Made by a program: the position numbers and the translations under genes
DNA from: a bacterium
Lineage (GTDB): Bacteria > Patescibacteriota > Minisyncoccia > 2-02-FULL-40-12 > IGHO2-12-FULL-4
DNA length: 37,887 bases
Assembly: GCA_030647955.1 (NCBI GenBank)
Contig: JAUSIQ010000026.1
Span: 1 to 37,887, forward strand
Direction: 5' to 3'
The notes under the pieces: generated by a model
Told to the model about the DNA's origin: nothing
The model's database searches: none
Seen by the model: the letters and a program-made list of their open reading frames with translations, nothing else
Shown here: piece by piece, positions 13,751 to 33,242 of the stretch
How the letters are laid out: the number at the start of each line of letters is the position of its first letter
How positions within the stretch are numbered: position 1 is the first letter of the stretch

Positions 13751-13789
13751 AATGGACCCAGTATAGCATTCACTTGGTCCATTCGTCAA
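13751..13789 (-). promoter_or_regulatory. secE-nusG-rplK promoter with flanking inverted repeat
   Basis: Minus strand TTGACG (13784-13789), 18-nt spacer, TATACT (13760-13765) with extended TGC. Perfect 8-bp inverted arms AATGGACC / GGTCCATT (13751-13758 and 13776-13783) bracket the -10 and abut the -35. A palindromic CCCCGCGGGG lies in the leader. Confidence 0.75.
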
Positions 13790-13795
13790 TCCCCT

Positions 13796-15910
<2,115 letters not shown>

Positions 15911-15982
15911 TTAGAAACAGAAACGGACCGAGAGAGTGATATTCGCGAGACTACTACCTATAACAATAACAAAAATTTAAAC

Positions 15983-16013
15983 AAAAAACAAGCATAATTT
16001 CGGCCTGTTTTTT
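15983..16013 (-). terminator. Possible terminator after pheS
   Basis: AAAAAACA pairs with TGTTTTTT around a loop carrying a further GC/GC pair, just past the pheS stop on the minus strand. AT-rich and weak. Confidence 0.4.
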
Positions 16014-16021
16014 GCCACTTT

Positions 16022-17164
16022 TTAACGCACTTGCGCGTTAAATTGCTTGATAGTTTCTTCGGTTATTTTGCTTTGGATTGGATCAATCTCTTCCGTCTTT
16101 AGAGTACGCTCGTTACTGCGATAAATAATCCGATACATATAACTTAATTTATCCGCACCAAATTTCTCCGCGTTTTCGTATTTATCCATAAGCTTAACTT
16201 CCTCCACCAAATCCCCGCCCAAATCCCGAATTAAATCGAAATAGTTGTTCGGCACAAAGTCTTTGTTCACCAGAAAAGAAATATCACGCGTAATGGGCGG
16301 AAACTTGGAAACTTCTTTAAATTTATTGCCCAATACCAACTGCCTTTTAACCCGCTCGTCCTCGGACCACAGCAAGCGAATATCGGGCAAGTCCATACTA
16401 ACAATCGCCAGTCGTTCCAAGCCAAAGCCAAAGGCCCATCCGGTGTAGTTTTTAGAATCAACTCCTAATTTATCTAAGACGCTATCCTTAACTACCCCAC
16501 AACCCACTACCTCCACCCATTTGCCCCCGATCTCCACTTCCATTTCTAGTGAAGGATCGGTATAGGGAAAAGTATCAGGGTTCAGACGATATTTAATATC
16601 CGGACCGAACACTGCTTTGGCAATGTTACTAAGCGCCTCTTCCAAATCATTTTGTCCGATGGTTTTAACTGCCTTGGGTACCAGATACCAGCCATCGATT
16701 TGATGAAAGACATTCATGTGCTTACGATCGATCTCGTCTTTGCGATAAACCTTCCCAAAGCTAAAAGCACCGACCGGCTCGTTCTGCGCAATGCTGTTTT
16801 TTACGCCTTCATCATTTAAGTAGTAGTACCACATCACTGTAGTGTGGGTGCGTAAAATGTTTTCATCATCAATGTAGTAGGTGTCGGATTTACTTCGCGC
16901 GGGATGATTGGCAGGAAAATCGAACAAATCAAAACTCACTTTGGCCGGTACAATCTCGGGAGTTTGAATCACATCCAAGTCTTTAAAATACGGACTGGAT
17001 AAAATCCTTTGCACAATTTCCGCAATCGGACTACCTGGCTTGCGCGACAAATCGGGCATATCCAAAAACCGCTTCATACGCAAGCTTTCCGGATCGGTTT
17101 TCGATTCGAGAGTTTTTCTTAATTTCTCTGCTTCGGGAGATTGAATGGTAATATTATTAATCAT
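16022..17164 (-). CDS. pheS: Single-chain phenylalanyl-tRNA synthetase (PheS core fused to FDX-ACB domain)
   Basis: Charges tRNA-Phe. 380 residues from the ATG at 17164. The class II core is clear: FDFPANHPARSKSDTYY, ILRTHTTVMW (motif 2), GKVYRKDEIDRKHMNVFHQIDG and GWAFGFGLERLAI (motif 3). The last ~95 residues, from FPPITRDISFLV to the end, match the ferredoxin-fold anticodon-binding (FDX-ACB) domain. In bacteria that domain normally sits at the C-terminus of PheT. The N-terminal tRNA-binding coiled coil of ordinary PheS is missing, so the layout matches mitochondrial monomeric PheRS. No pheT is in the window. The start follows an extended -10 box and avoids a 30-residue low-quality extension. 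Confidence 0.93.
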   Translation of the reverse strand: MINNITIQSPEAEKLRKTLESKTDPESLRMKRFLDMPDLSRKPGSPIAEIVQRILSSPYFKDLDVIQTPEIVPAKVSFDLFDFPANHPARSKSDTYYIDDENILRTHTTVMWYYYLNDEGVKNSIAQNEPVGAFSFGKVYRKDEIDRKHMNVFHQIDGWYLVPKAVKTIGQNDLEEALSNIAKAVFGPDIKYRLNPDTFPYTDPSLEMEVEIGGKWVEVVGCGVVKDSVLDKLGVDSKNYTGWAFGFGLERLAIVSMDLPDIRLLWSEDERVKRQLVLGNKFKEVSKFPPITRDISFLVNKDFVPNNYFDLIRDLGGDLVEEVKLMDKYENAEKFGADKLSYMYRIIYRSNERTLKTEEIDPIQSKITEETIKQFNAQVR

Positions 17165-17177
17165 GGGATTTACACCT

Positions 17178-17186
17178 AACCTAGCA
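17178..17186 (-). promoter_or_regulatory. pheS extended -10 box
   Basis: Minus strand TGC-TAGGTT ending 13 nt before the ATG, the same spacing as at thrS. The -35 is poor and overlaps the T-run of the upstream terminator. Confidence 0.4.
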
Positions 17187-17197
17187 AAAAACATGGA

Positions 17198-17227
17198 ACA
17201 AAAAAAGGCCTCGCTCCCCGCGAAGCC
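17198..17227 (-). terminator. Terminator of the secreted wall-binding protein gene
   Basis: Minus strand GGCTTCGC-GGGGA-GCGAGGCC-like stem (one G-T pair) followed by seven T, about 110 nt after the stop of the upstream gene. Confidence 0.8.
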
Positions 17228-17338
17228 CCCACAAATGATTTCAGATGAAGACACCTATGGAAGTGATCAGAAGCTATTGAACTTTATTCGTGGCGCACTG
17301 GACAGGACGGCTTTTGAGCAATGGATCGATCGGGTAGG

Positions 17339-19159
17339 TTAATTGGATATCAACGCTTTCAACGCTTGGCGAGTGATTTCGCCAAAGTAGCCGGATATTG
17401 GTTTAACACCATACTTCTCCTGAAGTTTTTTTACGGCTTCGCGAGTAATGTTACCGAAATAACCGGTAATCAAATTGACTGGATAACTTACCTCGTTTAC
17501 CAAAAGAGCCTGGAGTTGTTTCACATCAAGGCCGCTTGAACCTATGGTTAAGTTTCGTGAGATAGTAGCAAGATTACTGGATCTGCCATTTGTTCCAGAG
17601 AACGTATGTACAAACGTCACTGGACTTGACTGCTCCGACACATTCCCCGCCGCGTCATAGGCGGCGACGGTATAGCTGAATGGCGTCGAAGAACCAAAAA
17701 GGAAGCCGTCCTCGGCGGGAATACAACACACCGATTTCAAATACATGCCGTTGCGATATATGTTGTACCCTACAACGCCTATGTCGTCTGTTGATGCCGT
17801 CCAGGAAAGGAAATTTCGGTTGTCTTGAGGCCAAACTGTAAGGCCGGTCGGTTTTGAGGGCGGAATGGTATCAGAACCACTACCCATCGCCAGGGTTGTA
17901 GTCATTATGTTTGAATCGGGACCACAATCATAGGGCGCCGCGTAAGAACCAGGAGGACTGGAGCAAGCGCTCACTTTATAAGAATATGTTCCCGCTCCTA
18001 TATTAAGGTCATAAACATTATTGGGTTGGCCGATATCTATAAGCATCCAGTCCCCGTCGCCAAACTTTCGCCATGTTTTTTTATAATTGAGGTTACTTGC
18101 CGTCGTGTTCCATTTTATTTCTATGGACGATATCAAGCGACTACTAGGAGCTATGGGAGAATAGGGCGTGACAGAGGTAATGGTTACAGTTAGTGGCGCG
18201 AGTGGAGTCGGAGTTGGGGTCGAAGTGGGAGTTGGTGTGGAGGTCGGTGTAGATGTAGGCGTTGGTGTGGGAGTAGGGGTAGAAGTCGTTGTCGGTGTTG
18301 ATGTATTAGAAGTAGGGGTGGGGGTCGGCGAATATGACAGAGAAGCAGTGGGTGATGGTGAGGTAGAAACCACTGGCGTCGGTGTTGGAGAATAAGAAGT
18401 CGAGGCCGTCGGGCTTGGAGAAACACTAACTAGAGGCGTTGGTGTGGGAGAAACCACTGCTACTGGACATATTCCCAATGTATCGCCATGATCCAAATGT
18501 GCCTTCAGGGCAGACACGCCAACATTAATAGTTGTAAAAGCAGTAAGATTCCCCGGTGGATAATGACAAATGACGGCTTGGCCAACATCCTTAAACTCTG
18601 CTTTGGTTTCTAATTTTTCTTTGGTCGAAACTTCGTCTACTTCTGGTATGCGGTCGTATTTGGGCACCTCTTTCACAGAATTAAACGAAACTACGGCTTT
18701 GGGATACCAATCAAATTCTTTCTTGTTGATACAAAAAACTTTTTTGAAAAAATTGGGGTCGTCTTTGACAGCCTGTTCTCCGGAAGTATTTACCCAATGA
18801 ATCCGGCCATTATCTTCCCCGCCAACTTCTATGCCATAGACCTTCTTGTCGTTGTCTTCACAGTTTCTAAACAGACCGGAGGTGGGAAAAGAATCACGAA
18901 CTTCGGTAGTGACCAATTTAACATTAGCAAAACCGCCTAAATGGCTGTAAAACTTGAAAATATCCGGATTTAAGAAAAGACGCTTGAAACCCTGATCATT
19001 CACAATGTAGACATCAGGGTCAGAGGAGAAGATGGCGCTGATGAGATCCCCCTCTTTGAGGCCGAAGGTGGAGGGGAAGGCGGCATTAGAGAATCTCGAA
19101 CTGATAACGATGCCCGCGGAGATTAAAACAAAAACCATCAAAAGTGATGTTCGCTTCAT
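17339..19159 (-). CDS. Secreted modular surface protein with peptidoglycan-binding domain
   Basis: 606 residues. Signal peptide at residues 1-27 (hydrophobic core, ending SNAAF). Residues ~33-105 form an N-terminal domain (LKEGDLISAIF, VYIVNDQGFKRLFLNPD) of a type I associate with surface proteins of Parcubacteria. Around 198-232 is a Cys-bounded motif, ICHYPPGN then AHLDHGDTLGIC, known from many secreted bacterial proteins. Residues ~235-320 are a Pro/Thr/Ser linker of SPTPTP repeats. Two Ig/fibronectin-like domains follow (the second with PPSKPTGLTV and YNIYRNG). The C-terminus, from LTIGSSGLDVKQLQALL to the end, is a PG_binding_1 domain carrying GYFG twice. Likely anchored to the wall; ligand unknown. 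Monocistronic, with its own terminator. Confidence 0.85.
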   Translation of the reverse strand: MKRTSLLMVFVLISAGIVISSRFSNAAFPSTFGLKEGDLISAIFSSDPDVYIVNDQGFKRLFLNPDIFKFYSHLGGFANVKLVTTEVRDSFPTSGLFRNCEDNDKKVYGIEVGGEDNGRIHWVNTSGEQAVKDDPNFFKKVFCINKKEFDWYPKAVVSFNSVKEVPKYDRIPEVDEVSTKEKLETKAEFKDVGQAVICHYPPGNLTAFTTINVGVSALKAHLDHGDTLGICPVAVVSPTPTPLVSVSPSPTASTSYSPTPTPVVSTSPSPTASLSYSPTPTPTSNTSTPTTTSTPTPTPTPTSTPTSTPTPTSTPTPTPLAPLTVTITSVTPYSPIAPSSRLISSIEIKWNTTASNLNYKKTWRKFGDGDWMLIDIGQPNNVYDLNIGAGTYSYKVSACSSPPGSYAAPYDCGPDSNIMTTTLAMGSGSDTIPPSKPTGLTVWPQDNRNFLSWTASTDDIGVVGYNIYRNGMYLKSVCCIPAEDGFLFGSSTPFSYTVAAYDAAGNVSEQSSPVTFVHTFSGTNGRSSNLATISRNLTIGSSGLDVKQLQALLVNEVSYPVNLITGYFGNITREAVKKLQEKYGVKPISGYFGEITRQALKALISN

Positions 19160-19211
19160 AAATAAAAAAAGTTAATTGTACGCTTCAATTATACCCCCCA
19201 TCTCTCTGAAT

Positions 19212-19240
19212 AAAAACCGGGGTTATCAACCCTGGTTTTT
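19212..19240 (-). terminator. Terminator of tRNA-Asp
   Basis: AAAAACC, mismatch, GGGTT-ATC-AACCC, mismatch, GGTTTTT hairpin just downstream of the tRNA on the minus strand. Confidence 0.75.
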
Positions 19241-19250
19241 ATACTAACTG

Positions 19251-19325
19251 CGCGGGCGGCCGGATTCGAACCGGTGATCTCTGCCGTGACAGGGCAGCGC
19301 TTTAAACCAGCTAAGCTACGCCCGC
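19251..19325 (-). tRNA. tRNA-Asp (GTC)
   Basis: Minus strand cloverleaf: acceptor GCGGGCG / CGCCCGC (7 perfect pairs), D arm TAGCTTAGCTGG, anticodon stem CTGCC / GGCAG around loop CTGTCAC (anticodon GTC), and T loop TTCGAAT. Discriminator is G, as expected for tRNA-Asp. CCA is not encoded. Confidence 0.95.
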
Positions 19326-19364
19326 AAATTGTGTGATTAATATAACACAGGTTTCGTAAATACA

Positions 19365-19383
19365 AAAGGCCCCAAGGGCCTTT
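19365..19383 (-). terminator. Terminator after pyrH
   Basis: AAAGGCCC-CAA-GGGCCTTT, a perfect 8-bp stem followed on the minus strand by TTTTGTATTT. It separates pyrH from tRNA-Asp. Confidence 0.8.
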
Positions 19384-19390
19384 AAAAGAG

Positions 19391-20101
19391 CTAACTAATT
19401 TCCGAACCGATGTCACCGTCTACCAGTACTCGCCGCAAATTTCCCTTCTTGAAAATATTGAACACCCTGATCGGCAGCTTACACTTGCGAGCAAAGGCAA
19501 TTGCCTCGGCATCGATAATACCCAGGTTCATCTCAATAAAATGCTGGTAGGATACATGCGGCAAAAGCTTAGCATCAGCATGAGTAACTGGATCCTTATC
19601 GAAGACGCCGTCAACCTTGGTGCCCTTCAGAATATGCTTGGCCTCTAATTCGTGCCCGCGCAAAGTCATCGCGCTGTCGGTGGATGTAAAAGGATTGCCA
19701 GTTCCACCAGCCAGAATAATAACCCGACCCTTCTCTAAGTGACGCACCGCTCGGCCAATAATGTACGGCTCAGCGACCCGATTCATGTCAATGGCCGACA
19801 TCACCCTTACATCTAATCCATAATGCTTCTTTAATAGCACCCCCAAAACTTTAGCATTAATGACCGTAGCCAGCATGCCGGCGAAATCAATCTCACTCTG
19901 ATCCTTCAAGTTAAGCTTAGGCATTAAATCTTTGCCTCTAATCAAATTTCCACCACCAACCACTATCGCTAACTCAAATCGATCTTCAACTGAAACAATC
20001 TCTTGGGCTTGATTATGGAGACTCACTGGATCAAAATTGCCATTCCCCAAAGTACCCAAAGTTTCTCCAGAGATTTTCAAAAGAGCTCGCTCTTTCCGCA
20101 T
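19391..20101 (-). CDS. pyrH: Uridylate kinase
   Basis: Converts UMP to UDP; hexameric amino-acid-kinase fold, unrelated to eukaryotic UMP kinase. 236 residues. Motifs are LLKISGETLG at the N-terminus, IVVGGGNLIRG, the DFAGMLATVINAKVL helix, GRVIILAGGTGNPFTSTDSA (phosphate loop) and KGTKVDGVFDKDP. The ATG at 20101 has AAGGAGG four bases upstream, and a strong promoter lies 28-56 nt upstream. The common neighbours tsf and frr are not present here. Confidence 0.97.
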   Translation of the reverse strand: MRKERALLKISGETLGTLGNGNFDPVSLHNQAQEIVSVEDRFELAIVVGGGNLIRGKDLMPKLNLKDQSEIDFAGMLATVINAKVLGVLLKKHYGLDVRVMSAIDMNRVAEPYIIGRAVRHLEKGRVIILAGGTGNPFTSTDSAMTLRGHELEAKHILKGTKVDGVFDKDPVTHADAKLLPHVSYQHFIEMNLGIIDAEAIAFARKCKLPIRVFNIFKKGNLRRVLVDGDIGSEIS

Positions 20102-21444: not shown

Positions 21445-21520
21445 TGGTGCTGGCGGCAGGAATCGGACCTGCGACCTAAGCGTTATGAGTGCTTCGCTCT
21501 AACCACTGAGCTACGCCAGC
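21445..21520 (-). tRNA. tRNA-Met (CAT), elongator-type, CCA encoded
   Basis: Minus strand: acceptor GCTGGCG / CGCCAGC, D arm GCTCAGTGGTTAGAGC, anticodon loop CTCATAA (anticodon CAT), T arm GCAGG-TCCGATT-CCTGC, then A and encoded CCA. Elongator Met is likelier; tRNA-Ile2 (lysidine-modified CAT) cannot be excluded. One A-C mismatch closes the anticodon stem. Confidence 0.9.
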
Positions 21521-22320: not shown

Positions 22321-23211
22321 ATGGACACATCGATTCTATCCTGGAAGGCCCGGTGGGGATTAATTTCTACTTTATTGGCTATGCTTTTTATCGCCGGTCA
22401 ACTGGCCGCTCTTTTTTTAAGCATTAAGTTTTTAATGCCTGAATTTTTGGCTAGGCAGTGGAGCGCGAGCTGGTTCGTGCTCATCCCCCTCTTTCTGCTT
22501 ATCGTCATCTCCACTTGTTTTATCGAATGGTTTGTCCATAGAGATATTCTCCACACCGTAGTTTATTCTTTTTTTAGAGACATCTATCGCCGCCACGGAC
22601 GACACCACGGGTTTACACTGATTTATCTAGAAAAAATTAATTCAAACCTGACGAGAATCAAAAGTCTCTATACGATCAAAGAGCACCGACAAAACGAATC
22701 GGTTTCATTTCCGGACTATATGCTCCTGGCCTTCTTTGCTGCTTATACTATCCCCCTCATCTTATTGCAGGTTATATTTAGCGGACTACCTATCCTGCTC
22801 ACCGGTTACGCTGCCGTAGCCTGTTCTTATGCCTGCTACGAAGTTTTTCACCCCCTCGAACACAAGCCGAACGAGTGGTGGGAAAAGAGAAAAAATAATC
22901 CCATCGCCCGCCTCTTACGCTGGTATCTCTGGCCCATCCAACGCTTTCATGAGTATCACCATCTCTATCCTCAATACAACATGGCCATTGCCGGATTCTT
23001 TGGCATGCCCCTAGCCGATATCGTTTTAGGAACTTACAAAATGCCGCCGCAATCGTTATACGATGGCTTGCTAATTGAGCCAGAGAAACTGACTCCTCCT
23101 CGGACCAATCGCTTTGTACAAAAGCTAGACCGTTGGGCTAGGACCCGTTCAAAGAGACTCTTGGCCGAATTTCATGGCAGAGAGCAGCTACAATTGACGA
23201 CTCAACCATAA
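22321..23211 (+). CDS. Fatty-acid-hydroxylase-superfamily-like membrane protein
   Basis: 296 residues. Two membrane helices at about residues 13-40 and 48-68, and a second pair near 140-180. Histidine clusters typical of membrane di-iron oxygenases lie between and after them: EWFVHRDILH, YRRHGRHHGF, YEVFHPLEH and FHEYHHLYP (the H-x2-HH box). This matches the fatty acid hydroxylase / sterol desaturase superfamily in box type and order. Substrate could be a lipid or carotenoid. The ATG at 22321 follows GAGG. Next to it, on the same strand, are a small membrane protein and the TonB-type receptor. Unexpected in a lineage usually poor in lipid biosynthesis. Confidence 0.75.
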   Translation: MDTSILSWKARWGLISTLLAMLFIAGQLAALFLSIKFLMPEFLARQWSASWFVLIPLFLLIVISTCFIEWFVHRDILHTVVYSFFRDIYRRHGRHHGFTLIYLEKINSNLTRIKSLYTIKEHRQNESVSFPDYMLLAFFAAYTIPLILLQVIFSGLPILLTGYAAVACSYACYEVFHPLEHKPNEWWEKRKNNPIARLLRWYLWPIQRFHEYHHLYPQYNMAIAGFFGMPLADIVLGTYKMPPQSLYDGLLIEPEKLTPPRTNRFVQKLDRWARTRSKRLLAEFHGREQLQLTTQP

Positions 23212-23254
23212 TACGTTAATCTATGGCACGGTTGTTTATTAAAAAGGAGTCGGC

Positions 23255-23572
23255 ATGATAACTTACCTTATATTCGGTTTGGGTATGCAAGGTAGTCCAT
23301 ACTTTGCTGTATTCTTGATTGCCATCCTCGGTATTCTGATCGGTCGCTATTTAAAAACTTGGATCTGCATGGGTGTTTCCATAATAACTTTTTCGGCCAG
23401 CCTATTGATGCTTGCGACCACGCAAGAGATTACTGCCCTATTCGCTGTTAGTGAAATATTCTATTCTCTAGTTTTATCTATATCAATGTGGGTAACCGTA
23501 CTGGTAACCACTCGCAACGAATCTGGTTCTAAAAATATCGTCCAAAGTCTAAAGACAAAATTTCTTCGGTAA
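23255..23572 (+). CDS. Small membrane protein of unknown function
   Basis: 105 residues with three hydrophobic helices (about residues 4-30, 34-56 and 62-85) and a short basic C-terminal tail. No family recognised. The start is supported by AAAAAGGAG six nt before the ATG. A terminator begins right after the stop. It lies 43 nt after the hydroxylase-like gene on the same strand and is probably cotranscribed with it. Confidence 0.7.
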   Translation: MITYLIFGLGMQGSPYFAVFLIAILGILIGRYLKTWICMGVSIITFSASLLMLATTQEITALFAVSEIFYSLVLSISMWVTVLVTTRNESGSKNIVQSLKTKFLR

Positions 23573-23574
23573 CG

Positions 23575-23595
23575 CCTCCTTCGGGAGGTTTTTTG
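23575..23595 (+). terminator. Terminator after the small membrane protein
   Basis: CCTCC-TTCG-GGAGG followed by TTTTTTG; stable TTCG tetraloop. Confidence 0.9.
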
Positions 23596-23625
23596 TTGCA
23601 AATATAGGAATGAACATCCGACTAC

Positions 23626-23653
23626 TTGTAAATAGATTAAAAATTGTTAAAAT
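23626..23653 (+). promoter_or_regulatory. Promoter of the TonB/Oar-like receptor gene
   Basis: TTGTAA, 16-nt spacer, TAAAAT with extended TGT. The leader is about 26 nt with a consensus Shine-Dalgarno. Confidence 0.65.
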
Positions 23654-23685
23654 CATCTTGCGTTCATTAACAACAAGGAGGATAT

Positions 23686-26600
23686 GTGATTAGATCGAAA
23701 TTTGGTTTAGCCGTTATCTCGCTGGCTATGGCCTTGATCTTCCCGGCTAAGAGCTGGGGCCAAGCCGACACCGCTCGCCTTTCTGGAACAGTCCAGGATA
23801 GCAGCGGTGGCGTTATTCCGGAAGCTAACATTACTATTATCAACGAGAAGACTAATGAAAAAAGAGTACTGCGGTCTGATGCCATCGGCAATTTCAGAGT
23901 CCTCGATCTCCTGCCGACCATTTATACTATTCACATCGATCGAGAAGGTTTTGCTAGCGCTCAATACAAAAAAATTACTCTGGCCCTGGGCCAGGAGGTA
24001 AAAATCACGGTTATCCTTCAGCCTAGTTCGGTAAATACCACGATTTTTATTTCGAGTGGAACAACCGTGGTAGATACTAGTTCTGCTTCGATGAGCTCCA
24101 ATGTCGGCGCCGAATATATCTCTACTCTGCCGGCCAATGGCAGACAAATGTCACAGTTTGCGCTTTTGGCCCCCGGAGCGATTACGTCCGGTGGAGGTTC
24201 GTACGATAATATCCGCTTTAACGGCAGAGCTAACCAGCAAAACGCTATTCGTTTTGACGGCGTAGAAGGATCCTCGATCATCGACAGTTCGCCCGGCAAC
24301 CTCAACGGAGAAACCTCGACCAGCTTTCGACTGCATTCTAACATTGAAGGCATCCAAGAATTCCGCGTCGACTCCAGCAGTTATCCGGCCGAATTTGGAA
24401 CCGGTACCGGTGGACAGATCAGCATCATCTCCAAATCAGGAGGGAACACTTTTACTGGCGCCGTCTTCGAGTATCTGCGCAATGACAAACTGGATGCGCG
24501 AAACTTCTTCGATGGTGATAAGAAGTCTGCCTTGAGACTGAATCAATTCGGCTTCTCTTCTGGCGGTCCAATCATTAAAGATAAGTTTTTCTTTTTCGGC
24601 AGCTACGAAGGTCTGCGACAAGGATCAGGAGTAAATTTTATTGAAACCGTTCCATCGGCGACCGCGCGCGCGACAGCCGTACCGACCATTCGTCCTCTGC
24701 TGGCGGGTTACCCCCTGGGCAGCCCCACCGCCAATCCAGAACTGGATGTTGCTCAGCTTAATACCAAGACAGCGCTGACCGAAAATTACGCGCACTTGAG
24801 ATTGGACTATAAGTTCAACTCGAATTACAGCTTATATTTTAGGTACTTTCGAGACCAGGGCTATTCCGAAACTCCGCAGGGAGTAACCGGAAACTATTTT
24901 CTGGTTACAGCTGTCCCGCAGAATGCGGTCCTGAATTTTCAGCAGATTCTTTCTTCCTCTATGATCAATGAAACGAAGGTGGGCTTAAACGCCAGCAAGA
25001 CTCGTGCTTCGGGATTCGCCCCGGCCATTCCAGGAGTAGACACTTCTGCCTTCCGTATCGACTTTACGGGTAACACCGCGATCGCCGGTATCGGTGGGCA
25101 AGGCGCTTCCGCTTCGGCCGCCAGCTTGGGAAATTTGATTCGTTCCAACAGTACCCAAAACGGACGAGGCCAGCCCTACACCAACTATTCCCTGTCTTTC
25201 ATTGATAATCTCAGTAAAATTTCCGGCTCTCACACTTTCAAATTCGGGGCGGAAGTTCGTCCCCTGCGTATTACGACCGATCGTCTCGGCGGGACTACTT
25301 ACGCTTTCTCGAACGTGAGCGACTTCATGGCCAATCGGCCCTCGAACATTCAGTTCTTGGGTGATTTAAGTGACCCTAGTCCATTCAACAATGGGGCCAT
25401 AGGCCGAAGACAATTAAAACAAACCTATTATATCGGATACGCGCAGGATGAGTGGAAGATCAAACCAAATTTCACCATGAACTATGGATTGAGATATGAA
25501 TATTACTCTGTCATTAAAGAGGATCGCAATCTGATCACTTTCTTCGATACGGAGAATGGCGGACTACTACCCAACACTACTGCATTTTACCAAAGCTCGA
25601 AATTAAACTTTGGTCCACGCCTGGCTCTGACCTGGGCTCCGAAAATATTCAAGAATAAAACGCTTTTGCGCCTTGGTTCCGGTTACTACTACGGACCAGG
25701 ACAAACTGAAGATCAGATCCAACCGATCGAAACCGATCGACAAAGCCGCGCCTTAACCAATGCTTTATTCCCTATCGATCTTGCTCAAGTTAAAGCCAGC
25801 TACAATATCAACGATCCTAATCTGGGGTATCAGCCTCGTGCTTATGCCCCCGGTTATACCCTGCCCGAACAGATTCTCTCCTATACTCTTTCCGTTCAGC
25901 AACAATTACCCGGAAACATCAGTTTAACTGTGGCCTATGTTGGCAGCCAGGGTAGAAACTTATTCCTGCGCAGTTGGACCAATCGAGTCATTGGTGTAAA
26001 CATGAATCCCACTACTGGAGCGGGTATCCCTGTCTTACAATTTGGAAACCGCTTCTCGCAGATCGACTTCAAAACCAGTGGCGGAACAGATCATTACGAT
26101 TCCATGCAGACCTCCCTCTTTAGAAGGTTTAGCAACGGCTTCACCTTTGGTTCGCAATGGACCTGGAGTCACAGCCTAGGAAATACCGGCGGATCAAACG
26201 AAGCTCAAACCGCCACCAATCCTCTAAACTTCGAGCTAGATCGAGGCAACAACGCATTCGACGTTCGACATAGCTTTAATTTCAGTGGCCTTTACGCCAT
26301 GCCTTTTGGTAAGAGCAAAAACCGACTACTCAATTCTCTGCTGGCTAATTGGGAAATTGGCAGCACCGTGAATGGTAGAACCGGATTGCCTATCGATGTT
26401 AAAATTACCCGCCCGGATCTGGTTTACCAGGTCCTAAGCACCGGCGAATACGTTAGTAACCCCCTGGTTTCCGGCGGAGTGGTTTTAACGAGACCGGTCA
26501 TCAATGTTCCCAGCGGCGGAGCATTCCGTAATCAGCGCCGGCCGGATTTTGTGCCGGGAATGAGTCCCTTTCTGGAAACCCGCGATCGAAGATATATTCT

Positions 26601-26964
26601 TAATCCTGCGGCCTTTGCCATTCCCAGACCGGGAACCTATGGCAACCTGGGAAGATATGCCTTGCATGGTCCAGCCCTATTTCAGATGGATCTAACCATC
26701 CGACGTACCTTCAAAATCGTAAAGAAAGTTAAGATGGATTTGGGCGCAGAAGTCTTCAACATTTTTAACCGCGCCAACTTCACCAACCCTCCCACCACCC
26801 TGGCGAATGCCTTAGGTACAGGGACTAACAGATTACAGCCCGGTCAGCCTTTTACTTTGGCGGCTGCGGGCGGCAACTTCGGTATTGCTAATTCCACCGT
26901 GGAGAAAACCATCGGACTGGGAACAAGCCGACAGATACAGCTTTCCTTACGCCTCAGTTTCTAA
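23686..26964 (+). CDS. TonB-dependent-receptor/Oar-like outer membrane beta-barrel protein
   Basis: 1092 residues, apparently complete. Signal peptide at residues 1-25 (ends KSWGQA). A carboxypeptidase-regulatory-like domain follows (~29-110), with LSGTVQDSSGGVIPEANITI and GNFRVLDLLPTIYTIHID. A plug-like region comes next (~120-240), with LPANGRQMSQFALLAPGA, RFDGVEGSS and YPAEFGTGTGGQISIISKSG. A long beta-barrel fills the remainder, ending RQIQLSLRLSF with the C-terminal Phe of outer-membrane proteins. This layout is the Oar/Cna-B type TonB receptor family I associate with Acidobacteria and Myxococcota. It starts at GTG with AAGGAGG upstream and ends at a terminator. Monocistronic. No TonB box is evident. 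Insertion would require an outer membrane and BAM machinery, unexpected here. Ligand unknown. Confidence 0.9.
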   Translation: MIRSKFGLAVISLAMALIFPAKSWGQADTARLSGTVQDSSGGVIPEANITIINEKTNEKRVLRSDAIGNFRVLDLLPTIYTIHIDREGFASAQYKKITLALGQEVKITVILQPSSVNTTIFISSGTTVVDTSSASMSSNVGAEYISTLPANGRQMSQFALLAPGAITSGGGSYDNIRFNGRANQQNAIRFDGVEGSSIIDSSPGNLNGETSTSFRLHSNIEGIQEFRVDSSSYPAEFGTGTGGQISIISKSGGNTFTGAVFEYLRNDKLDARNFFDGDKKSALRLNQFGFSSGGPIIKDKFFFFGSYEGLRQGSGVNFIETVPSATARATAVPTIRPLLAGYPLGSPTANPELDVAQLNTKTALTENYAHLRLDYKFNSNYSLYFRYFRDQGYSETPQGVTGNYFLVTAVPQNAVLNFQQILSSSMINETKVGLNASKTRASGFAPAIPGVDTSAFRIDFTGNTAIAGIGGQGASASAASLGNLIRSNSTQNGRGQPYTNYSLSFIDNLSKISGSHTFKFGAEVRPLRITTDRLGGTTYAFSNVSDFMANRPSNIQFLGDLSDPSPFNNGAIGRRQLKQTYYIGYAQDEWKIKPNFTMNYGLRYEYYSVIKEDRNLITFFDTENGGLLPNTTAFYQSSKLNFGPRLALTWAPKIFKNKTLLRLGSGYYYGPGQTEDQIQPIETDRQSRALTNALFPIDLAQVKASYNINDPNLGYQPRAYAPGYTLPEQILSYTLSVQQQLPGNISLTVAYVGSQGRNLFLRSWTNRVIGVNMNPTTGAGIPVLQFGNRFSQIDFKTSGGTDHYDSMQTSLFRRFSNGFTFGSQWTWSHSLGNTGGSNEAQTATNPLNFELDRGNNAFDVRHSFNFSGLYAMPFGKSKNRLLNSLLANWEIGSTVNGRTGLPIDVKITRPDLVYQVLSTGEYVSNPLVSGGVVLTRPVINVPSGGAFRNQRRPDFVPGMSPFLETRDRRYILNPAAFAIPRPGTYGNLGRYALHGPALFQMDLTIRRTFKIVKKVKMDLGAEVFNIFNRANFTNPPTTLANALGTGTNRLQPGQPFTLAAAGGNFGIANSTVEKTIGLGTSRQIQLSLRLSF

Positions 26965-26985
26965 CCGCTCTTAGCGGTTTTTTTA
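26964..26985 (+). terminator. Terminator after the receptor gene
   Basis: ACCGCT-CTT-AGCGGT followed by TTTTTTT, overlapping the stop codon. Confidence 0.9.
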
Positions 26986-26997
26986 TACCAAATACCA

Positions 26998-27041
26998 GAA
27001 TCACAAAACTGCTGCCTTTAAAGGCAGCAGTTTTGTGATTC
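26998..27041. repeat. 44-bp perfect palindrome
   Basis: Each 22-nt arm is the exact reverse complement of the other with no spacer; the centre is TTT|AAA at 27019/27020. It lies between the convergent ends of the receptor gene and the Ser/Arg-rich gene. It could act as terminator of the latter because its arms contain A/T runs beside a GC core, but that gene already has little space and the receptor gene has its own terminator. Confidence 0.8.
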
Positions 27042-27046
27042 GAAAC

Positions 27047-27232
27047 TTACCTTGCTCCCCGGTCTTCAATCTGAGGGCTTTTAGATCTAGAAGAGCGGCC
27101 TCTTCCCTTGCTCCCACTGGAGCTTTGGGAAGTGGCTTTGGATCCGCCAGATTTGCCTCGATCACTCCCCGATCTAGATCGGGGTGACGAAGACGAAGAA
27201 GACGAACTAGATCGCGAAGATTTTCTTACCAT
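27047..27232 (-). CDS. Ser/Arg-rich disordered micro-protein
   Basis: 61 residues, of which about 25 are Ser and 10 Arg, with Lys and Gly. It contains a run of nine Ser after residue 7 and several SRS / SKS / GRGRSS units. Strongly basic and certainly disordered. No family assigned; it looks like an SR-type nucleic-acid-binding or phosphorylatable tail standing alone. Coding is supported by a TATAAT box 12 nt before the ATG (no Shine-Dalgarno, as at other starts here) and by a hairpin just after the stop. Divergent from the KGG stress protein gene. A chance frame in a purine-biased region is the alternative. Confidence 0.55.
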   Translation of the reverse strand: MVRKSSRSSSSSSSSSPRSRSGSDRGKSGGSKATSQSSSGSKGRGRSSRSKSPQIEDRGAR

Positions 27233-27244
27233 AGGCTTGAATTA

Positions 27245-27250
27245 ATTATA
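27245..27250 (-). promoter_or_regulatory. -10 box of the Ser/Arg-rich gene
   Basis: Minus strand consensus TATAAT ending 12 nt before the ATG; predicted leader about 6 nt. Confidence 0.45.
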
Positions 27251-27367
27251 ACTATAAAAAAATTCGACCATTCTTATGTTAAGATCATACCCCAATGCGA
27301 ATGAACCAAGCATGAACATTTATATAAACCTTTAATCTAAAATTCATTGCCTATCAGGTATCATCTG

Positions 27368-27373
27368 TAATAT
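27368..27373 (+). promoter_or_regulatory. Possible KGG-gene -10 box
   Basis: TG-TAATAT with TTGCCT 15 nt upstream; a second candidate extended -10 (TGT-TAAGAT) lies at 27277-27285. Which one is used cannot be decided by eye. Confidence 0.35.
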
Positions 27374-27416
27374 AGAAGGTCGAAAAAGTAGTCCTTAAAA
27401 ATGGGCAGGAAATCAT

Positions 27417-27674
27417 ATGGCTACAAACAACAATAAAGAAGATGTGACTGGCAGTAAAAACCCAACCCTCGATAATCAAGACGATAATGAGGGCCAAGGT
27501 TTTGGTAACATGACTCCTGAAGAACGCCGCAAAGCGGGTTCAGAGGGAGGAAAGGCCGCTCACCGAAAGGGCACCGCTCACGAGTATAATTCCGATACCG
27601 GCAAAGAAGCGGGCCGTAAAGGTGGTAGTGCCAAAAACAATACCGAGGACAAAAAAGAAGATCGCAACTCTTAG
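27417..27674 (+). CDS. KGG-repeat general stress protein
   Basis: 85 residues, hydrophilic. Carries the KGG (stress-induced bacterial acidophilic repeat) motif: MTPEERRKAGSEGGKAAHRKG at about residues 32-52, and a second unit TGKEAGRKGGSAK near 66. The ends are rich in Asn, Asp, Glu and Lys. Family members such as GsiB-like and Con-10-like proteins accumulate under desiccation, heat or starvation; the molecular role is uncertain. Start ATG 27417 has a weak AGGAA six nt upstream. Followed by a strong terminator and divergent from another disordered small protein, suggesting a stress locus. Confidence 0.85.
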   Translation: MATNNNKEDVTGSKNPTLDNQDDNEGQGFGNMTPEERRKAGSEGGKAAHRKGTAHEYNSDTGKEAGRKGGSAKNNTEDKKEDRNS

Positions 27675-27685
27675 TACAAATCCAT

Positions 27686-27721
27686 AATACTAAAGCCCCG
27701 CATCTGCGGGGCTTTAGTATT
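27686..27721. terminator. Bidirectional terminator between KGG and ClpP-like genes
   Basis: Perfect 16-bp stem around loop ATCT (GC core GCCCCGC / GCGGGGC with AT-rich ends). Overlaps the stop codon of the ClpP-like gene. Confidence 0.9.
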
Positions 27722-28367
27722 ATATTATTTGATCAGCGAGTCCAAATCGGAGCGCTTCCTTCGGTTCCAAAACCATCCCCTTTTCCATAAACCGCAGAGC
27801 TCGAGCATGACTTAATTTGCCCTTTGAAGCTTGAGCTAATAAAGCTGCATATTGGTTATCTTTCAGTGTATCTTCCTTTAGAATCGAGCTGATTTCAGTG
27901 GTCGTAAATCTTTTTGAACTGTTAAAGGTGCGCCCTGCCTTATGTAGGAGCAAAGTAGTGTTTTTAGTCAGGATTCTTTTTTGTCCTGCCAAAAATACAA
28001 TGATTGCTGCGGAATCAACATCTCCCGATCCAATCGTACACAAGTTTGGTCTGATCACTTTCGTCATGAGATCGTAAAAACTCATCCCTACTCCGGTCGG
28101 TCCACCCGGGGAGGTAATAATTAAGTTTATGTTCTGATGTGGATCCTTGCGTATGAGAGTTTTTATTTTAGACGAAATTTTGTTGGACATTTCCTGATCA
28201 ATACTTCCCGTCCACTCCACGGTTCTTTCCAAATTTGTTTTTGGAAAAGATGAATTTCGTGAATATTTTTTTGACTGAGTTCTTTTCATAGAAGCCAGCT
28301 TAACAGAAACCCCTTGCATAGCAAGCTCAAGCATGGTGCTATTTATTTCACTTTCTTCATCTTGCAT
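27720..28367 (-). CDS. ClpP/crotonase-fold protease-like protein lacking the catalytic Asp
   Basis: 215 residues from the ATG at 28367 (GGGAG 9 nt upstream). A longer frame exists but runs antisense into msrA. ClpP landmarks are LIITSPGGPTGVGMSFYDLM (oxyanion-loop region, residues 83-101), SGDVDSAAIIVFLAGQKRIL with the serine at S119, and LLLHKAG with H142 (usual MHQP). Where ClpP has its Asp in an ERDRF-like motif, this protein reads MEKGMVL, so the Asp appears to be Gly. The N-terminal ~45 residues are an extra charged segment. A regulatory or non-Clp peptidase role is possible. Divergent from msrA with a 27-bp gap. Confidence 0.75.
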   Translation of the reverse strand: MQDEESEINSTMLELAMQGVSVKLASMKRTQSKKYSRNSSFPKTNLERTVEWTGSIDQEMSNKISSKIKTLIRKDPHQNINLIITSPGGPTGVGMSFYDLMTKVIRPNLCTIGSGDVDSAAIIVFLAGQKRILTKNTTLLLHKAGRTFNSSKRFTTTEISSILKEDTLKDNQYAALLAQASKGKLSHARALRFMEKGMVLEPKEALRFGLADQII

Positions 28368-28389
28368 TTTGATCCGCTCCCGATAGAAT
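28362..28389 (+). promoter_or_regulatory. msrA promoter, leaderless
   Basis: TTGCAT, 16-nt spacer, TAGAAT ending 5 nt before the msrA ATG, so transcription should begin at the start codon. The -35 overlaps the start codon of the divergent gene. Confidence 0.55.
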
Positions 28390-28394
28390 AAACT

Positions 28395-28946
28395 ATGAAT
28401 CAAAATCATTCGATCAATTCTCGACAGATTGCCGTTTTTGGCGGAGGGTGTTTTTGGTGCACCGAAGCCATATTTCAAAGATTAAAGGGAGTTAGTGCGG
28501 TCATGCCCGGCTATACCGGAGGAAAAAATGCTAATCCAACTTACGAGCAGGTTTCTACCGGAGCTACGGGTCACGTAGAAGTCATTCGGATTGAGTTTGA
28601 TGCCACCAAAATTTCTTTTGAAGACCTCCTCACAGTATTTTTTGCCACGCATGATCCCACTACTCTCAATCGCCAAGGAAATGACATCGGTACTCAATAC
28701 CGCTCCGTAATTTTTTACACCAACCCCGAACAGAAAACACAGGCCGAAACATTTATTAAAAATCTCAACGACGACGATAAAGGAAAACCGGCGGTTACGG
28801 AAGTTGAACCACTTAAGAAATTTTACCCCGCCGAAGACTATCATCAGCAATATTATCTTCAGCACCAAGACGAACCTTACTGTCAGATTATTATTAATCC
28901 AAAATTAGATAAGCTGGAAGAAAAATTTGAATCTCTCCTTAAATAG
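28395..28946 (+). CDS. msrA: Peptide methionine-S-sulfoxide reductase A
   Basis: Repairs oxidised methionine in proteins using thioredoxin-type reductants. 183 residues. The catalytic motif GGGCFWCTE has nucleophile C19 and C22. GYTGGKNANPTYEQVSTGATGHVEVI is the substrate-pocket signature, followed by THDPTTLNRQGNDIGTQYRSVIFY and the C-terminal KFYPAEDYHQQYY. The MsrB domain often fused in other bacteria is absent. ATG 28395 has no Shine-Dalgarno and a -10 box immediately upstream. Confidence 0.97.
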   Translation: MNQNHSINSRQIAVFGGGCFWCTEAIFQRLKGVSAVMPGYTGGKNANPTYEQVSTGATGHVEVIRIEFDATKISFEDLLTVFFATHDPTTLNRQGNDIGTQYRSVIFYTNPEQKTQAETFIKNLNDDDKGKPAVTEVEPLKKFYPAEDYHQQYYLQHQDEPYCQIIINPKLDKLEEKFESLLK

Positions 28947-29065
28947 CTTACTTTACTGAGCAAGGAGCAAAATGGAAGATTCTTATCTTCATATACAGCT
29001 CATAGTCAAACCGCATACTCGGGTAAATTCGTGGTCGAAAAATAGTCAATTTTAACCCTTTTACC

Positions 29066-29398
29066 ATGAGAATTACAATTAGATTCATTAACTTAGTAGT
29101 AGGAATTTCCGAACTAGTGCTCGGTTTTCGTTTTTTGATGCGTCTTTTTGGAGCTAATCCGGCCACCCCCTTTGTACGCTGGATTTATGAAACTAGCCAA
29201 CCCATCTTATACCCCTTCCGCGGCATCTTTCCCCCGCAAGTTATCGAATCCGGATTTGTCTTTGAGTTTACTACCCTCTTTGCCATGGTCGCCTATGCCG
29301 TCTTGGGATTTGTGATTATCGAATTAGTGCGTCTTATCCATGCTTCTGTTCATCGCCATCATCACCACGAAGATCTTGGCGCTAGAAGAAGTGCCTAG
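29066..29398 (+). CDS. YggT-family membrane protein
   Basis: 110 residues with two membrane helices (about 8-25 and 65-90) flanking the YggT signature region FLMRLFGANPATPFVRWIYETSQPILYPFRGIFPP. The C-terminus is His-rich (HRHHHHED). Family members are small membrane proteins implicated in envelope or osmotic functions, not biochemically defined. No Shine-Dalgarno before ATG 29066; the 119-bp gap after msrA may carry its promoter, but none is clear. Confidence 0.85.
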   Translation: MRITIRFINLVVGISELVLGFRFLMRLFGANPATPFVRWIYETSQPILYPFRGIFPPQVIESGFVFEFTTLFAMVAYAVLGFVIIELVRLIHASVHRHHHHEDLGARRSA

Positions 29399-29414: not shown

Positions 29415-29876
29415 ATGACAAAAAATAAAGAGACTAAAACAAAAATTACTACCGACCACGACGAAATTAGAAAATGGGCGGAAAAGCGCGATGGTATTCC
29501 AAGTAAGGTAAAAGGTGTCCGAGGCGGAGGAATTATTCTGCGCATCGATTTCCCCGGATTTAGCGGAGAGGACACTTTAGAGGAGATAACCTGGGACGAA
29601 TGGTTTGAGACCTTCGAAGAACAAGACCTTGCTTTCCTCTATCAAGATAAAATAGATAACGAGCCAAGTCACTTCAATAAATTAGTTTCCAGAGAAGGAA
29701 ACATTGATGAGGATAACGATGCAGAAGACGAAGAAGCGGATGATGAAGATAAAGAGGAAAAAGAAGAAGAGGATGAGCGGAAAAAAGAAGACGATCAAAC
29801 AGAAAGACGCGAAGAGGCGGCCGAAACTAACTTAGCACGCCCAGCTCACGCAGAGCCTTCTCAAATCCTTCGATAG
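29415..29876 (+). CDS. Small conserved protein with long acidic tail
   Basis: 153 residues. The N-terminal ~95 residues (TTDHDEIRKWAEKRDGIPSKVKG, ILRIDFPGFSGEDTLEEITWDEWFETFEE, FNKLVS) match a conserved small protein that I recall being mislabelled as 1,4-alpha-glucan branching enzyme; it has no glycosidase fold and its role is unknown. Residues ~98-140 are almost all Glu, Asp, Lys and Arg, a disordered polyampholyte tail. The last 16 codons overlap the convergent HEPN-like gene by 50 bp. It lies 16 nt after the YggT gene, so is likely cotranscribed. Confidence 0.75.
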   Translation: MTKNKETKTKITTDHDEIRKWAEKRDGIPSKVKGVRGGGIILRIDFPGFSGEDTLEEITWDEWFETFEEQDLAFLYQDKIDNEPSHFNKLVSREGNIDEDNDAEDEEADDEDKEEKEEEDERKKEDDQTERREEAAETNLARPAHAEPSQILR

Positions 29877-30456
29877 CTCTCAAAGCATCGCGATACTGCA
29901 CTAGAACATTTGGGTCATGCGCAATAAGATTTCGCAATTTATGAGCCGCCCAGAGATCATCCAATGATTGCAGTTTGCTTTTATCGATAGCCATGAGCTT
30001 TTCTCCTAAACCTTTGCCCGGAAATCCGGATTGCTCCATCACGTCTTCGATCATCTTATCCGCCTCAATGACGGCAAACTTCCACTCGGCATCACGAATG
30101 GAGCTGAGGTGTTCTCGCACTTCTTTCCATTTGGCATCGTAAGAGCTTTCCGCTGGCTTCGGTGGATTCCATTCCACTTTCAGTCGGACCGCCCGTTCGG
30201 CGAAATAACGATTCATCTTTAATAAAATCCATACAAATAAAACCCCAAAAACAATGGTGGCGATAATACCGATGGTTCGCAACACACTGACAATCGGAGA
30301 AACATCTACTGTATTCAATATATGAGCTGCCTGCCCGGTGAAATCGACACGACCCGGAGCATCATTAGAGCTAAGAGAACTCAAAGGATCGACATTCCTG
30401 TAAAGATTGCCGAGTACTTGATTATAGATTTCTGATATATTGAAATCGAGAGCCAT
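29827..30456 (-). CDS. Membrane-anchored HEPN-like protein
   Basis: 209 residues. One membrane helix at about residues 58-80 (IVSVLRTIGIIATIVFGVLFVWILL) is followed by a cytosolic helical domain. That domain has EADKMIEDVMEQSGFPG and AAHKLRNLIAHDP, where R175-N-x3-H180 fits the R-x4-H motif of HEPN-fold proteins, many of which are RNases or nucleotide-binding partners. Coupled to gatA: its ATG directly follows the gatA stop (TAA-ATG). Whether the HEPN motif is catalytic or structural is unknown. Overlaps the convergent acidic-tail gene by 50 bp. Confidence 0.7.
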   Translation of the reverse strand: MALDFNISEIYNQVLGNLYRNVDPLSSLSSNDAPGRVDFTGQAAHILNTVDVSPIVSVLRTIGIIATIVFGVLFVWILLKMNRYFAERAVRLKVEWNPPKPAESSYDAKWKEVREHLSSIRDAEWKFAVIEADKMIEDVMEQSGFPGKGLGEKLMAIDKSKLQSLDDLWAAHKLRNLIAHDPNVLVQYRDALRAIEGFEKALRELGVLS

Positions 30457-31845
30457 TTAGATGTTCTCTAAATTATACCCTACTTGAAGAATTTTTTCTT
30501 CATCGAATTTTTTACCGATAATTTGCAAACCTACCGGCAAGCCATTTACTGCTCCACAAGGCATAGAGAGAGCCGGCAATCCCGCTAAGTTGACTGGTAC
30601 AGTGTAAATATCAGAAAGATACATTGAGAGCGGGTCCTCTTTTTCCCCAATCTTAAAAGCGGTGGTCGGGGTGGTCGGTCCAACAATCACATCAAATTTC
30701 TCAAAAACTTTTTCAAAATCGTTCGTAATCAAAGTACGAACTTTTTGCGCGCGTAGATAATAGGCATCGTAGTAGCCAGACGACAAGGTGTACGTTCCCA
30801 AGACGATGCGGCGGCGAACCTCATCCCCAAATCCCTCTGATCGGCTTTGTAAATAACCATCGAGCAGGTCTTCTCCTTTTTTGTACAGACCATAGCGGAT
30901 TCCATCATAACGCGCCAGGTTAGAAGAAGCTTCAGCGGGCATTAAAATATAATACGTCGCTAATGAATACTTGGTGTGCGGCAAACTAACTTGATCCACA
31001 TGCGCTCCCAGCTGTTCGAGCTTACTAATCGCCTGCTCCACTACCTTATTCACCTCTCCATCTAAACCCTCCCCGAAATATTCTTTCGGCATGGCAATTT
31101 TTAAACCTTTGATGGGTTTAGAAAGATTGGCCGTAAAATCCGGCACGGGCAATTGCGCCGCGGTGGAATCCATCGGATCCGCTCCGCTCAATATATTCAT
31201 TAACAGCGCGGCATCATAGATATTTTTAGTCATCGGTCCGATCTGATCCAGGCTCGAAGCCAAAGCCAGTAAACCATAACGAGATACTCGGCCGTAAGTG
31301 GGCTTCAAACCAACGATGCCGCAAAAAGCTGCGGGTTGCCGAATTGATCCGCCTGTATCTGAACCCAAAGCGGCCACCGCCAAACCGGCTGCCACGGCTG
31401 CGGCTGATCCCCCACTAGACCCTCCCGGCACTCGAGAATGGTCGTGTGGATTTTTCGTTACACCAAAAGCGGAGTTTTCAGTAGAAGAACCCATCGCAAA
31501 CTCGTCTAAATTAGTTTTCCCTAAAATAACCGCTCCGGCTTCTTTGAGTTTACGCACTACCGTGGCGTCATAAACCGCCACGTGATTTTTTAAAATCTTG
31601 GAAGCGGCTGTCGTCACACTTCCCTGCAAAGACATATTGTCTTTCAAAGCCAGTGGTACTCCGCCTAGAATACCTTCGGGACGATCTTCTTTGGTGACCG
31701 TTTCGTTCAAGCTTAAGTAGGAGTGCAAACTTTTGTCCTCCTCTTCGATTAGCTTTAAAAATTTCTTATGGAGTTCGTGGGCAGAAAATTCCCCCTTCTC
31801 AATACCCTCTCGAACACTTTTGATAGTCAGATTCTTGAGATCCAT
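30457..31845 (-). CDS. gatA: Asp-tRNA(Asn)/Glu-tRNA(Gln) amidotransferase subunit A
   Basis: Glutaminase subunit of GatCAB, supplying ammonia through the channel to GatB. 462 residues. The amidase-signature triad is visible: Lys in GVPLALKDN, Ser in [16 protein letters not shown], and the nucleophile Ser in [31 protein letters not shown] and the glutamine pocket residues near [11 protein letters not shown] follow. It starts one base after the gatC stop and ends directly before the HEPN-like gene start. Confidence 0.98.
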
Positions 31846-31846
31846 A

Positions 31847-32146
31847 TTATTCCTGCTTCAAAATCGCTTTCACTTTAAGAAAACCATCTTTAGTCTCCGG
31901 CGCCTGCTCTAACATGGCCCGCACTTGTTCGGTATTATCTTCCTCTCTCTTTTTATCTGGTCGCATAATATTAATGGCTCCAATTCCACTGGTCGTTGGG
32001 GACACATTTTCGATCGGTAGTTCGTTTAATTGAGCCACATAATCCAAAATCAAAGAAAGCTCCTTTTGGAACTTTTGCTTTTCTTTTTCATTGAGTTTTA
32101 ATCGGGCCAAAGCCGCGATGCGCTCTACTTCGTTCTCGCTAATCAT
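31847..32146 (-). CDS. gatC: Asp-tRNA(Asn)/Glu-tRNA(Gln) amidotransferase subunit C
   Basis: Small clamp between GatA and GatB. 99 residues from ATG 32146; a TTG one codon earlier is possible. Sequence features are [41 protein letters not shown] and the C-terminal [14 protein letters not shown], as expected for GatC. No Shine-Dalgarno; a TATACT box ends 7 nt before the ATG. First gene of gatC-gatA-HEPN; gatB is elsewhere. Confidence 0.96.
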
Positions 32147-32153
32147 CAAAAAC

Positions 32154-32182
32154 AGTATATAGTATTTTGTATTTTGTATCCA
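32154..32182 (-). promoter_or_regulatory. gatC promoter, leaderless
   Basis: Minus strand TGGATA, 17-nt spacer (containing two ATACAAA repeats), TATACT, then 7 nt to the ATG. Confidence 0.6.
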
Positions 32183-32227
32183 GTATCTTTAATCTTGAGC
32201 TTTATACCATATACCCAACGCAAAGAC

Positions 32228-33238
32228 CTATTTTCCAAGGTATTTGACTCTATTGCGCTCGTGCTCCTCGGCCGTCTTACTGAAAATAGTCTTACCGTCC
32301 GGAGCGGAAAGATAGAAGAGATAATCGCTTTGTTGAGGATTTAAAGCGGCCTGAATGGCTCGTTCTCCCGGGTTAGAGATTGGCCCAGCCGGTAAACCAA
32401 CCCGCATATAAGTATTGTAAGGAGAGTCAATCTTCAACCACTTTAATAAGTTGATCTGAGAAGCATCGCAAAACACTTTCCGAGAAAGGCGCGGTGGAAC
32501 TTCTTCTCCCGCCCCTTGCAAGCACGCCCCATAAGCGACGCTCGCGTCAATTTGCAACAACATTTTTAGAGCCAAGCGTCTTTCGATAATCCCAGCCACT
32601 AGAGCCATGTCTTCGGACTTTTGCACTTCTTTTTCTAACATAGCTGCGACAATGATTTGCTCTCGATTGGGAGATTTACCAACTTGATCCTGAAAATGTT
32701 CGGTCATTTTTGCAAACAACTCGTCGACTATTTCTGTTGCCAATCGCGGTTTATCATCCTGTGGTCCCTGGAGACGATAAGTGTCCGGAAAAAGATACCC
32801 TTCTTTGGCTTGAGCCTTCTTAACAAACTCTCCTCCTTTAATTAAACCCTGCTCCGCTAAGCGGCGGTCAATTTCCCAGACATTAAACCCCTCTGGGATG
32901 GTAATGACAATATCATTGGTCTCTCCCTTTCCCTCTGACAAGATTGAAACTAACTTAGGAATGTTCATCCCCGGAGAAAGAAGGTAGCGTCCCGCTTTAA
33001 ACTCCCTTTCCTTTCCCACTAAAAGCGTATACAGCAAAAACCAATAGCGATTCCGGACTAAATCTTCTTGCGCCAAAAGACGGGCCACCGTAGAAGACCC
33101 GTCTCCTTCTGAAACTATAAATTCTTTTTTAGGGCTATCCGCTTTTCCTGCTGGAACGTAGATGACGATCGTGATCCCCGTCAGGGCAATGGCGATCACC
33201 AAAACAAGGATAAGCGCTCGCCGATTTACTTCAGTCAT
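32228..33238 (-). CDS. mltG: Endolytic murein transglycosylase MltG (YceG-like)
   Basis: Cuts nascent glycan strands and sets their length. 336 residues: one N-terminal membrane helix (about 8-28), a LysM-like domain with FIVSEGDGSSTVARLLAQE, and the catalytic domain with IPEGFNVWEIDRRLAEQGLI, KEGYLFPDTYRL and AAMLEKEVQ, where E202 is the expected catalytic Glu. C-terminal NTYMRVGLPAGPISNPG and YLFYLSAPDGKTIFSKT are typical. It starts 4 nt after the polytopic TPR gene, so the two are coupled. Supports an active peptidoglycan wall. Confidence 0.96.
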   Translation of the reverse strand: MTEVNRRALILVLVIAIALTGITIVIYVPAGKADSPKKEFIVSEGDGSSTVARLLAQEDLVRNRYWFLLYTLLVGKEREFKAGRYLLSPGMNIPKLVSILSEGKGETNDIVITIPEGFNVWEIDRRLAEQGLIKGGEFVKKAQAKEGYLFPDTYRLQGPQDDKPRLATEIVDELFAKMTEHFQDQVGKSPNREQIIVAAMLEKEVQKSEDMALVAGIIERRLALKMLLQIDASVAYGACLQGAGEEVPPRLSRKVFCDASQINLLKWLKIDSPYNTYMRVGLPAGPISNPGERAIQAALNPQQSDYLFYLSAPDGKTIFSKTAEEHERNRVKYLGK

Positions 33239-33242
33239 TAAA

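Follow-up and report, generated by a model that had tools for sequence, protein, structure and literature searches.

A bacterial genome of monoderm type carries a complete Oar-type TonB-dependent receptor gene. As far as sequence can show, the gene came by lateral transfer from Bryobacterales-type Acidobacteria, entered a variable chromosomal segment associated with tRNA-Met, and has since been maintained by purifying selection. Our tentatively preferred reading is that this acquired and selected receptor leaves the cell through Sec and does its work in a diderm partner's envelope, the partner plausibly being an acidobacterium.

The receptor gene and its chromosomal setting

The stretch of DNA analyzed (the window) is the entire contig C1, 37,887 bp, of a 0.94-Mb draft genome (G000) in 42 contigs, with 97.8% completeness and 2.85% estimated contamination. 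Genes neighboring the receptor form a bacterial housekeeping set of the reduced-genome type, and nearly all genomes in the sampled class and phylum (more than 200 families) measure 0.4 to 2 Mb, which fits Patescibacteria. The size of the genome, the genes it contains, and the composition of the phylum sample together indicate a patescibacterial host, as a preliminary description of this DNA had proposed.

The receptor (Table 1) matched the OMP_b-brl_4 barrel family (PF25183) at an E value of 2.6e-142 (476.5 bits against a curated cut-off of 30), and its CarboxypepD_reg match (PF13620) was also far over the cut-off; PF00593 was matched only below threshold. The plug segment lies between these two domains and aligns with acidobacterial plugs, although it was modeled at low confidence. 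At the TonB-box position the receptor reads NTTIFISSG, versus (S/T)EVNVSGG in its relatives, and the protein ends in IQLSLRLSF. Pfam searches detected no anchor, sortase, or PG-binding domain. Open reading frame and Pfam results thus agree with the preliminary description of a complete 1092-residue Oar-type receptor with signal peptide, CarboxypepD_reg domain, plug, barrel, and C-terminal Phe. Its account of the expression signals held for the Shine-Dalgarno sequence and for the terminator, terminator-like sites being commoner in the region than in shuffled sequence (22 observed versus 8.6). The extended -10 promoter did not survive the same comparison: promoter-like sites showed no excess (8 observed versus 11.3), and the motif is therefore no evidence by itself. 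Directly 3' of the receptor gene lies a gene for a KGG-repeat stress-type protein (27417-27674).

An AlphaFold2 model of the receptor from 28 sequences had a mean pLDDT of 66.8 and a pTM of 0.62, with a plug too poorly modeled to support the proposed count of 22 strands for the barrel. In Foldseek searches of the PDB, the top matches of this model were the TonB-dependent receptors YddB, FusA, and SusC (E values down to 2.7e-19). In predicted fold, the receptor appears to resemble SusC/RagA and siderophore receptors (YddB, FusA, PfeA, and BT2261 among the best matches), but identity to them is only ∼10%, and a sequence profile found no PDB chain for it.

Table 1. Features of the window, and loci of related interest in other genomes of the order
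Feature	Position	Strand	Basis
Left conserved backbone: rplK, nusG, gyrB, pheS-like, pyrH; common to G004 (pyrH also to G003)	12471..20101	-	
tRNA-Met	21445..21520	-	
tRNA-Met, left border of variable segment	21618..21692	+	
Variable segment: receptor, TrhA-extension membrane protein, KGG protein, ClpP-like protein, MsrA, YggT	22321..29398	.	
Promoter-like TTGTAA-16-TAAAAT with TG, not above chance	23626..23653	+	motif scan vs shuffles
Shine-Dalgarno AAGGAGG	23675..23681	+	sequence
Oar-type TonB-dependent receptor CDS (C1), 1092 aa, GTG start, TAA stop	23686..26964	+	ORF, Pfam, relatives
Signal peptide, ~residues 1-26	23686..23763	+	inspection; hydrophobic helix 3-23 in structure model
CarboxypepD_reg, residues 32-111	23779..24018	+	PF13620 E=2.6e-16; fastest-diverging part vs relatives
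Plug domain, ~residues 113-255	24022..24450	+	alignment with acidobacterial receptors; low model confidence; relaxed vs barrel
Beta-barrel, residues 256-1092, C-terminal Phe at end	24451..26961	+	PF25183; Foldseek TBDRs YddB, FusA, SusC
Terminator-like stem-loop, overlaps receptor stop codon	26963..26979	+	motif scan vs shuffles
Right conserved backbone: 209-aa protein, gatA, gatC, mltG, TPR protein; order same in G003 and G004	29827..35864	-	
PD40-Omp85 / ~213-aa / GWxTD cassette loci	L129:6830-10237, L130:4508-7480, L131:8880-11984, L132:8039-9577		
TonB loci	L137:13591-14490, L136:10512-11498, L162:6089-7003, L163:6864-7790, L164:6297-7223, L159, L160, L161		

Two genomes from the host's own family, G003 and G004, served for comparison of gene order. 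Content varies between the tRNA-Met and the gene for the 209-aa protein: the window holds the receptor segment there, and G003 and G004 hold a TonB gene and nadA. No homologue of the genes at 22321..29398 was found in the corresponding interval of either genome. In G003, the end of a serine recombinase gene (L136:4665-6242) overlaps tRNA-Met at a site matching that of the variable segment in the window. Farther to the left, positions 16022-17254 encode a PheS-like protein joined to an FDX-ACB domain in one chain, a mitochondrial-type layout that is also present in G004; its best NCBIfam match, "PheS-related mystery ligase SrmL," fell below the cut-off.

Acidobacterial relatives, codon usage, and constraint

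The best of the 80 closest loci in the genome collection were all from Acidobacteriota, with L001 first (64% identity over residues 10-1092). In a maximum-likelihood tree, the receptor was nested in a Bryobacterales-type clade with L001 nearest, on a long terminal branch (0.6). Acidobacterial Oar-type receptors, which combine PF25183 and PF13620, are like the receptor in domain order, length, full-length sequence (as compared with L001), and C-terminal Phe. Unlike them, it is carried by a monoderm-type genome in which Omp85, ExbD, and TonB had no match, its plug and CarboxypepD_reg domain have diverged beyond its barrel, and its codon usage is that of the host. Relatives on viral contigs were not found, and relatives among plasmid TonB-dependent receptors were distant (∼25%); carriage by phage or plasmid was dropped on these grounds.

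Third-position GC content (GC3) of the receptor gene was 0.52, versus 0.67 to 0.85 in the acidobacterial clade. Scored as log2 odds per codon for host usage, the receptor gene reached +0.20, other genes of the window +0.16 to +0.55, and acidobacterial relatives -0.19 to -0.43. Two checks named in the preliminary description, protein search with phylogeny and codon usage, were thus informative: the nearest relatives are acidobacterial and the receptor lies inside their clade, and its codons fall within the range of the host's window genes and outside the acidobacterial range. Despite this drift in codons, the receptor retains 135 of the 138 residues that are invariant in 27 acidobacterial relatives. 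Simulated neutral drift to the GC3 of the receptor gene introduced at least 33 stops in 200 of 200 runs; the actual gene has no stop codon. Selection has therefore acted on the gene, either in its present host or in an earlier carrier with a comparable base composition. Because the flanks are collinear, the relatives acidobacterial, the codons host-like, and 135 of 138 invariant residues kept in a frame free of stops, these data argue for an old transfer maintained under selection and not for contamination.

Constraint was unevenly distributed along the protein. The ratio of plug to barrel divergence was 0.83 for the C1 receptor versus 0.50 to 0.59 in its clade, values that come from related sequences, so that the outlying position of C1 does not translate into a probability. 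The C1 barrel has diverged from its acidobacterial relatives hardly faster than these have from one another; the plug has diverged faster. For the receptors related to a second copy in G000 (C13-type, described below), the ratios were 1.01 to 1.06 versus 0.92 to 1.02. Since plug relaxation is not clear in these copies, it is no general rule. The pattern in C1 hints at a barrel maintained by selection and at weaker constraint on energized, plug-gated transport.

Outer-membrane proteins elsewhere in the order

The second and older Oar-type receptor of G000 (832 aa; L087:11516-14014) follows groEL/groES on contig C13, which carries many foreign-looking genes. Beside it, between groEL and uvrC-type genes, are a GH5-like protein, a trypsin-like protein, and a MoxR/DUF58/VWA (Bat-like) cluster. 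Its structure model, with a pLDDT of 33, was set aside. Full matches to a combined CarboxypepD_reg and plug profile were found in 4 of 45 genomes of the order (G000, G005, G247, and G350). Across 380 genomes of the phylum, G000 alone gave a full match, CarboxypepD_reg-only matches occurred in ∼130, and a plug-only match fell on a 3-kb contig of G479. This last, from another class, is a classical TonB-dependent receptor (L124:3-1952) and possibly bin contamination.

G247 and G350 represent two genera of another family in the host's order. Their receptors and that of C13 form one clade (support 100/100) nested among Bryobacterales-type receptors, and the G247 and G350 loci have eight neighbor genes in common in the same order. 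Clade and gene order together mean that the C13-type receptor was, by this evidence, acquired long ago and inherited vertically, with losses. The G247 and G350 receptor genes (L092:8236-10869 and L123:8446-11148) adjoin, in a conserved block, a gene for a ceramidase-like protein with a subthreshold PF04734 match. The idea that C13-type copies have lost the C-terminal BAM signal was dropped, since their acidobacterial relatives likewise end in RFLGKK. The G005 receptor belongs to a third subfamily and lies at contig ends, making it a weaker case.

Two further kinds of outer-membrane gene were present in the order. Matches to PF01103 in 4 of the 45 genomes, from four genera of one third family, were proteins of 990 to 1135 aa (one clipped by a contig end) that join a PD40 propeller to an Omp85 barrel. 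Adjoining dnaG, each such gene is followed by one for a secreted protein of 200 to 217 aa and one for a GWxTD-type protein, and all three are homologous in the four genera. TonB_C (PF03544) was found in 7 of the 45 genomes, in 3 of them beside an aspS-like gene; none of the seven has an Oar-type receptor. Receptor, Omp85 barrel, and TonB are three kinds of gene of which no sampled genome had two.

Outer-membrane machinery and the likely site of action

Possession of beta-barrel outer-membrane receptors is generally regarded as a sign that a cell is diderm. In profile searches, Omp85/BamA and ExbD had no match in six genomes of the host's family, G000 and the TonB-bearing G003 and G004 among them, and TonB had none in G000. 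Across the 45 genomes of the order, canonical BamA was not found, Omp85 barrels being limited to the 4 PD40 proteins, and no genome encoded the secretin of type IV pili. The searched genomes were drafts (G000 97.8% complete), and control genomes gave matches in each search. G000 thus yielded neither member of the TonB and ExbD pair that functional TonB-dependent transport takes in one cell, and neither BamA/Omp85 nor secretin, two markers of a classical outer membrane.

A barrel depends on an outer membrane to sit in and on BAM to put it there; neither was detected in G000, which makes the envelope of another cell the likeliest site for the receptor. The receptor would be exported by Sec through its own signal peptide from a symbiont in close contact with a diderm partner, or inside that partner's periplasm. 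The partner's own BAM could then fold it into the partner's envelope, where the barrel might serve the symbiont as a pore, receptor, or contact site. That the partner is an acidobacterium is plausible, judging from the donor only. Against action in a partner's envelope we count the patchy distribution of Oar-type receptors, present in 4 of 45 genomes. Bdellovibrio-type predators, which live in the prey periplasm, offer an analogy only, Bdellovibrio itself being diderm: in such a location, barrels that a symbiont exports through Sec might reach the BAM of a partner.

In an order that yielded neither canonical BamA nor secretin, complete receptors and other barrel proteins have persisted, in some cases across genera and families. 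Either these proteins work in the envelope of a different organism, or the current picture of the order's own envelope is wrong. A wider proposal, possible but doubtful, is that this monoderm order arms itself with proteins borrowed from Acidobacteria (Oar receptors, PD40-Omp85 barrels, and TonB) and deploys them in trans in the envelope of a diderm partner, so that the partner's BAM would fold them and its outer membrane be opened or modified. Judging from the donors, the order's partners are likely to be Acidobacteria.

Of the alternatives to action in a partner's envelope, reuse at the symbiont's own monoderm surface ranks first, although we consider it rather unlikely. The exported protein would sit in or on the cell wall as an adhesin or ligand binder, working through its CarboxypepD_reg domain and plug or its loops and not as a membrane barrel. 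A signal peptide, a conserved reading frame, the frequency of CarboxypepD_reg-only proteins in the phylum, and the undetected outer-membrane machinery are all consistent with such reuse. However, it is the barrel, a structure of no use to a cell that lacks an outer membrane, that is held at acidobacterial constraint while the CarboxypepD_reg domain and plug diverge; the C-terminal Phe is retained; and the receptor lacks the surface-attachment domains searched for with Pfam.

An unrecognized outer membrane of the lineage's own, assembled by noncanonical factors, comes second and is improbable. The preliminary description had raised an unrecognized outer envelope, and the several diderm gene kinds in the order (Oar receptors, PD40-Omp85 barrels, and TonB) would favor one. 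However, its suggested search of the genome for BamA and TonB-ExbBD brought up no Omp85/BamA, TonB, or ExbD; canonical BamA and secretin were missing from all 45 genomes and ExbD from six; and the three gene kinds never occurred two together. We therefore rejected it as the main reading. Patescibacteria are, moreover, described as monoderm and without an outer membrane (PMC11665869, PMC12102498), and surveys find TonB and outer-membrane proteins generally absent from them (PMC7137472, PMC11665869). A limited literature search found no report of Patescibacteria retaining TonB-dependent receptors.

Third, the receptor may be a passenger. Many genes would have come in from Acidobacteria, natural competence being one conceivable route, and this one would have persisted temporarily despite having no function. 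The tRNA-Met beside the variable segment, the foreign-looking genes on C13, and the relaxed plug would all suit a passenger; the amelioration of codons without stops, the retained invariant residues, and the persistence of the C13-type receptor across two families and of the Omp85 cassette across four genera make it very unlikely. An assembly chimera or acidobacterial contamination, conceivable for a draft metagenome-assembled genome with some estimated contamination and donor sequences from Acidobacteria, is so improbable that we reject it, given flanks collinear with G003 and G004, host-like codons with a GC3 below that of the donor clade, orthologues elsewhere, and independent relatives in which outer-membrane genes were passed on vertically; the preliminary description had likewise argued against a simple contaminating fragment.
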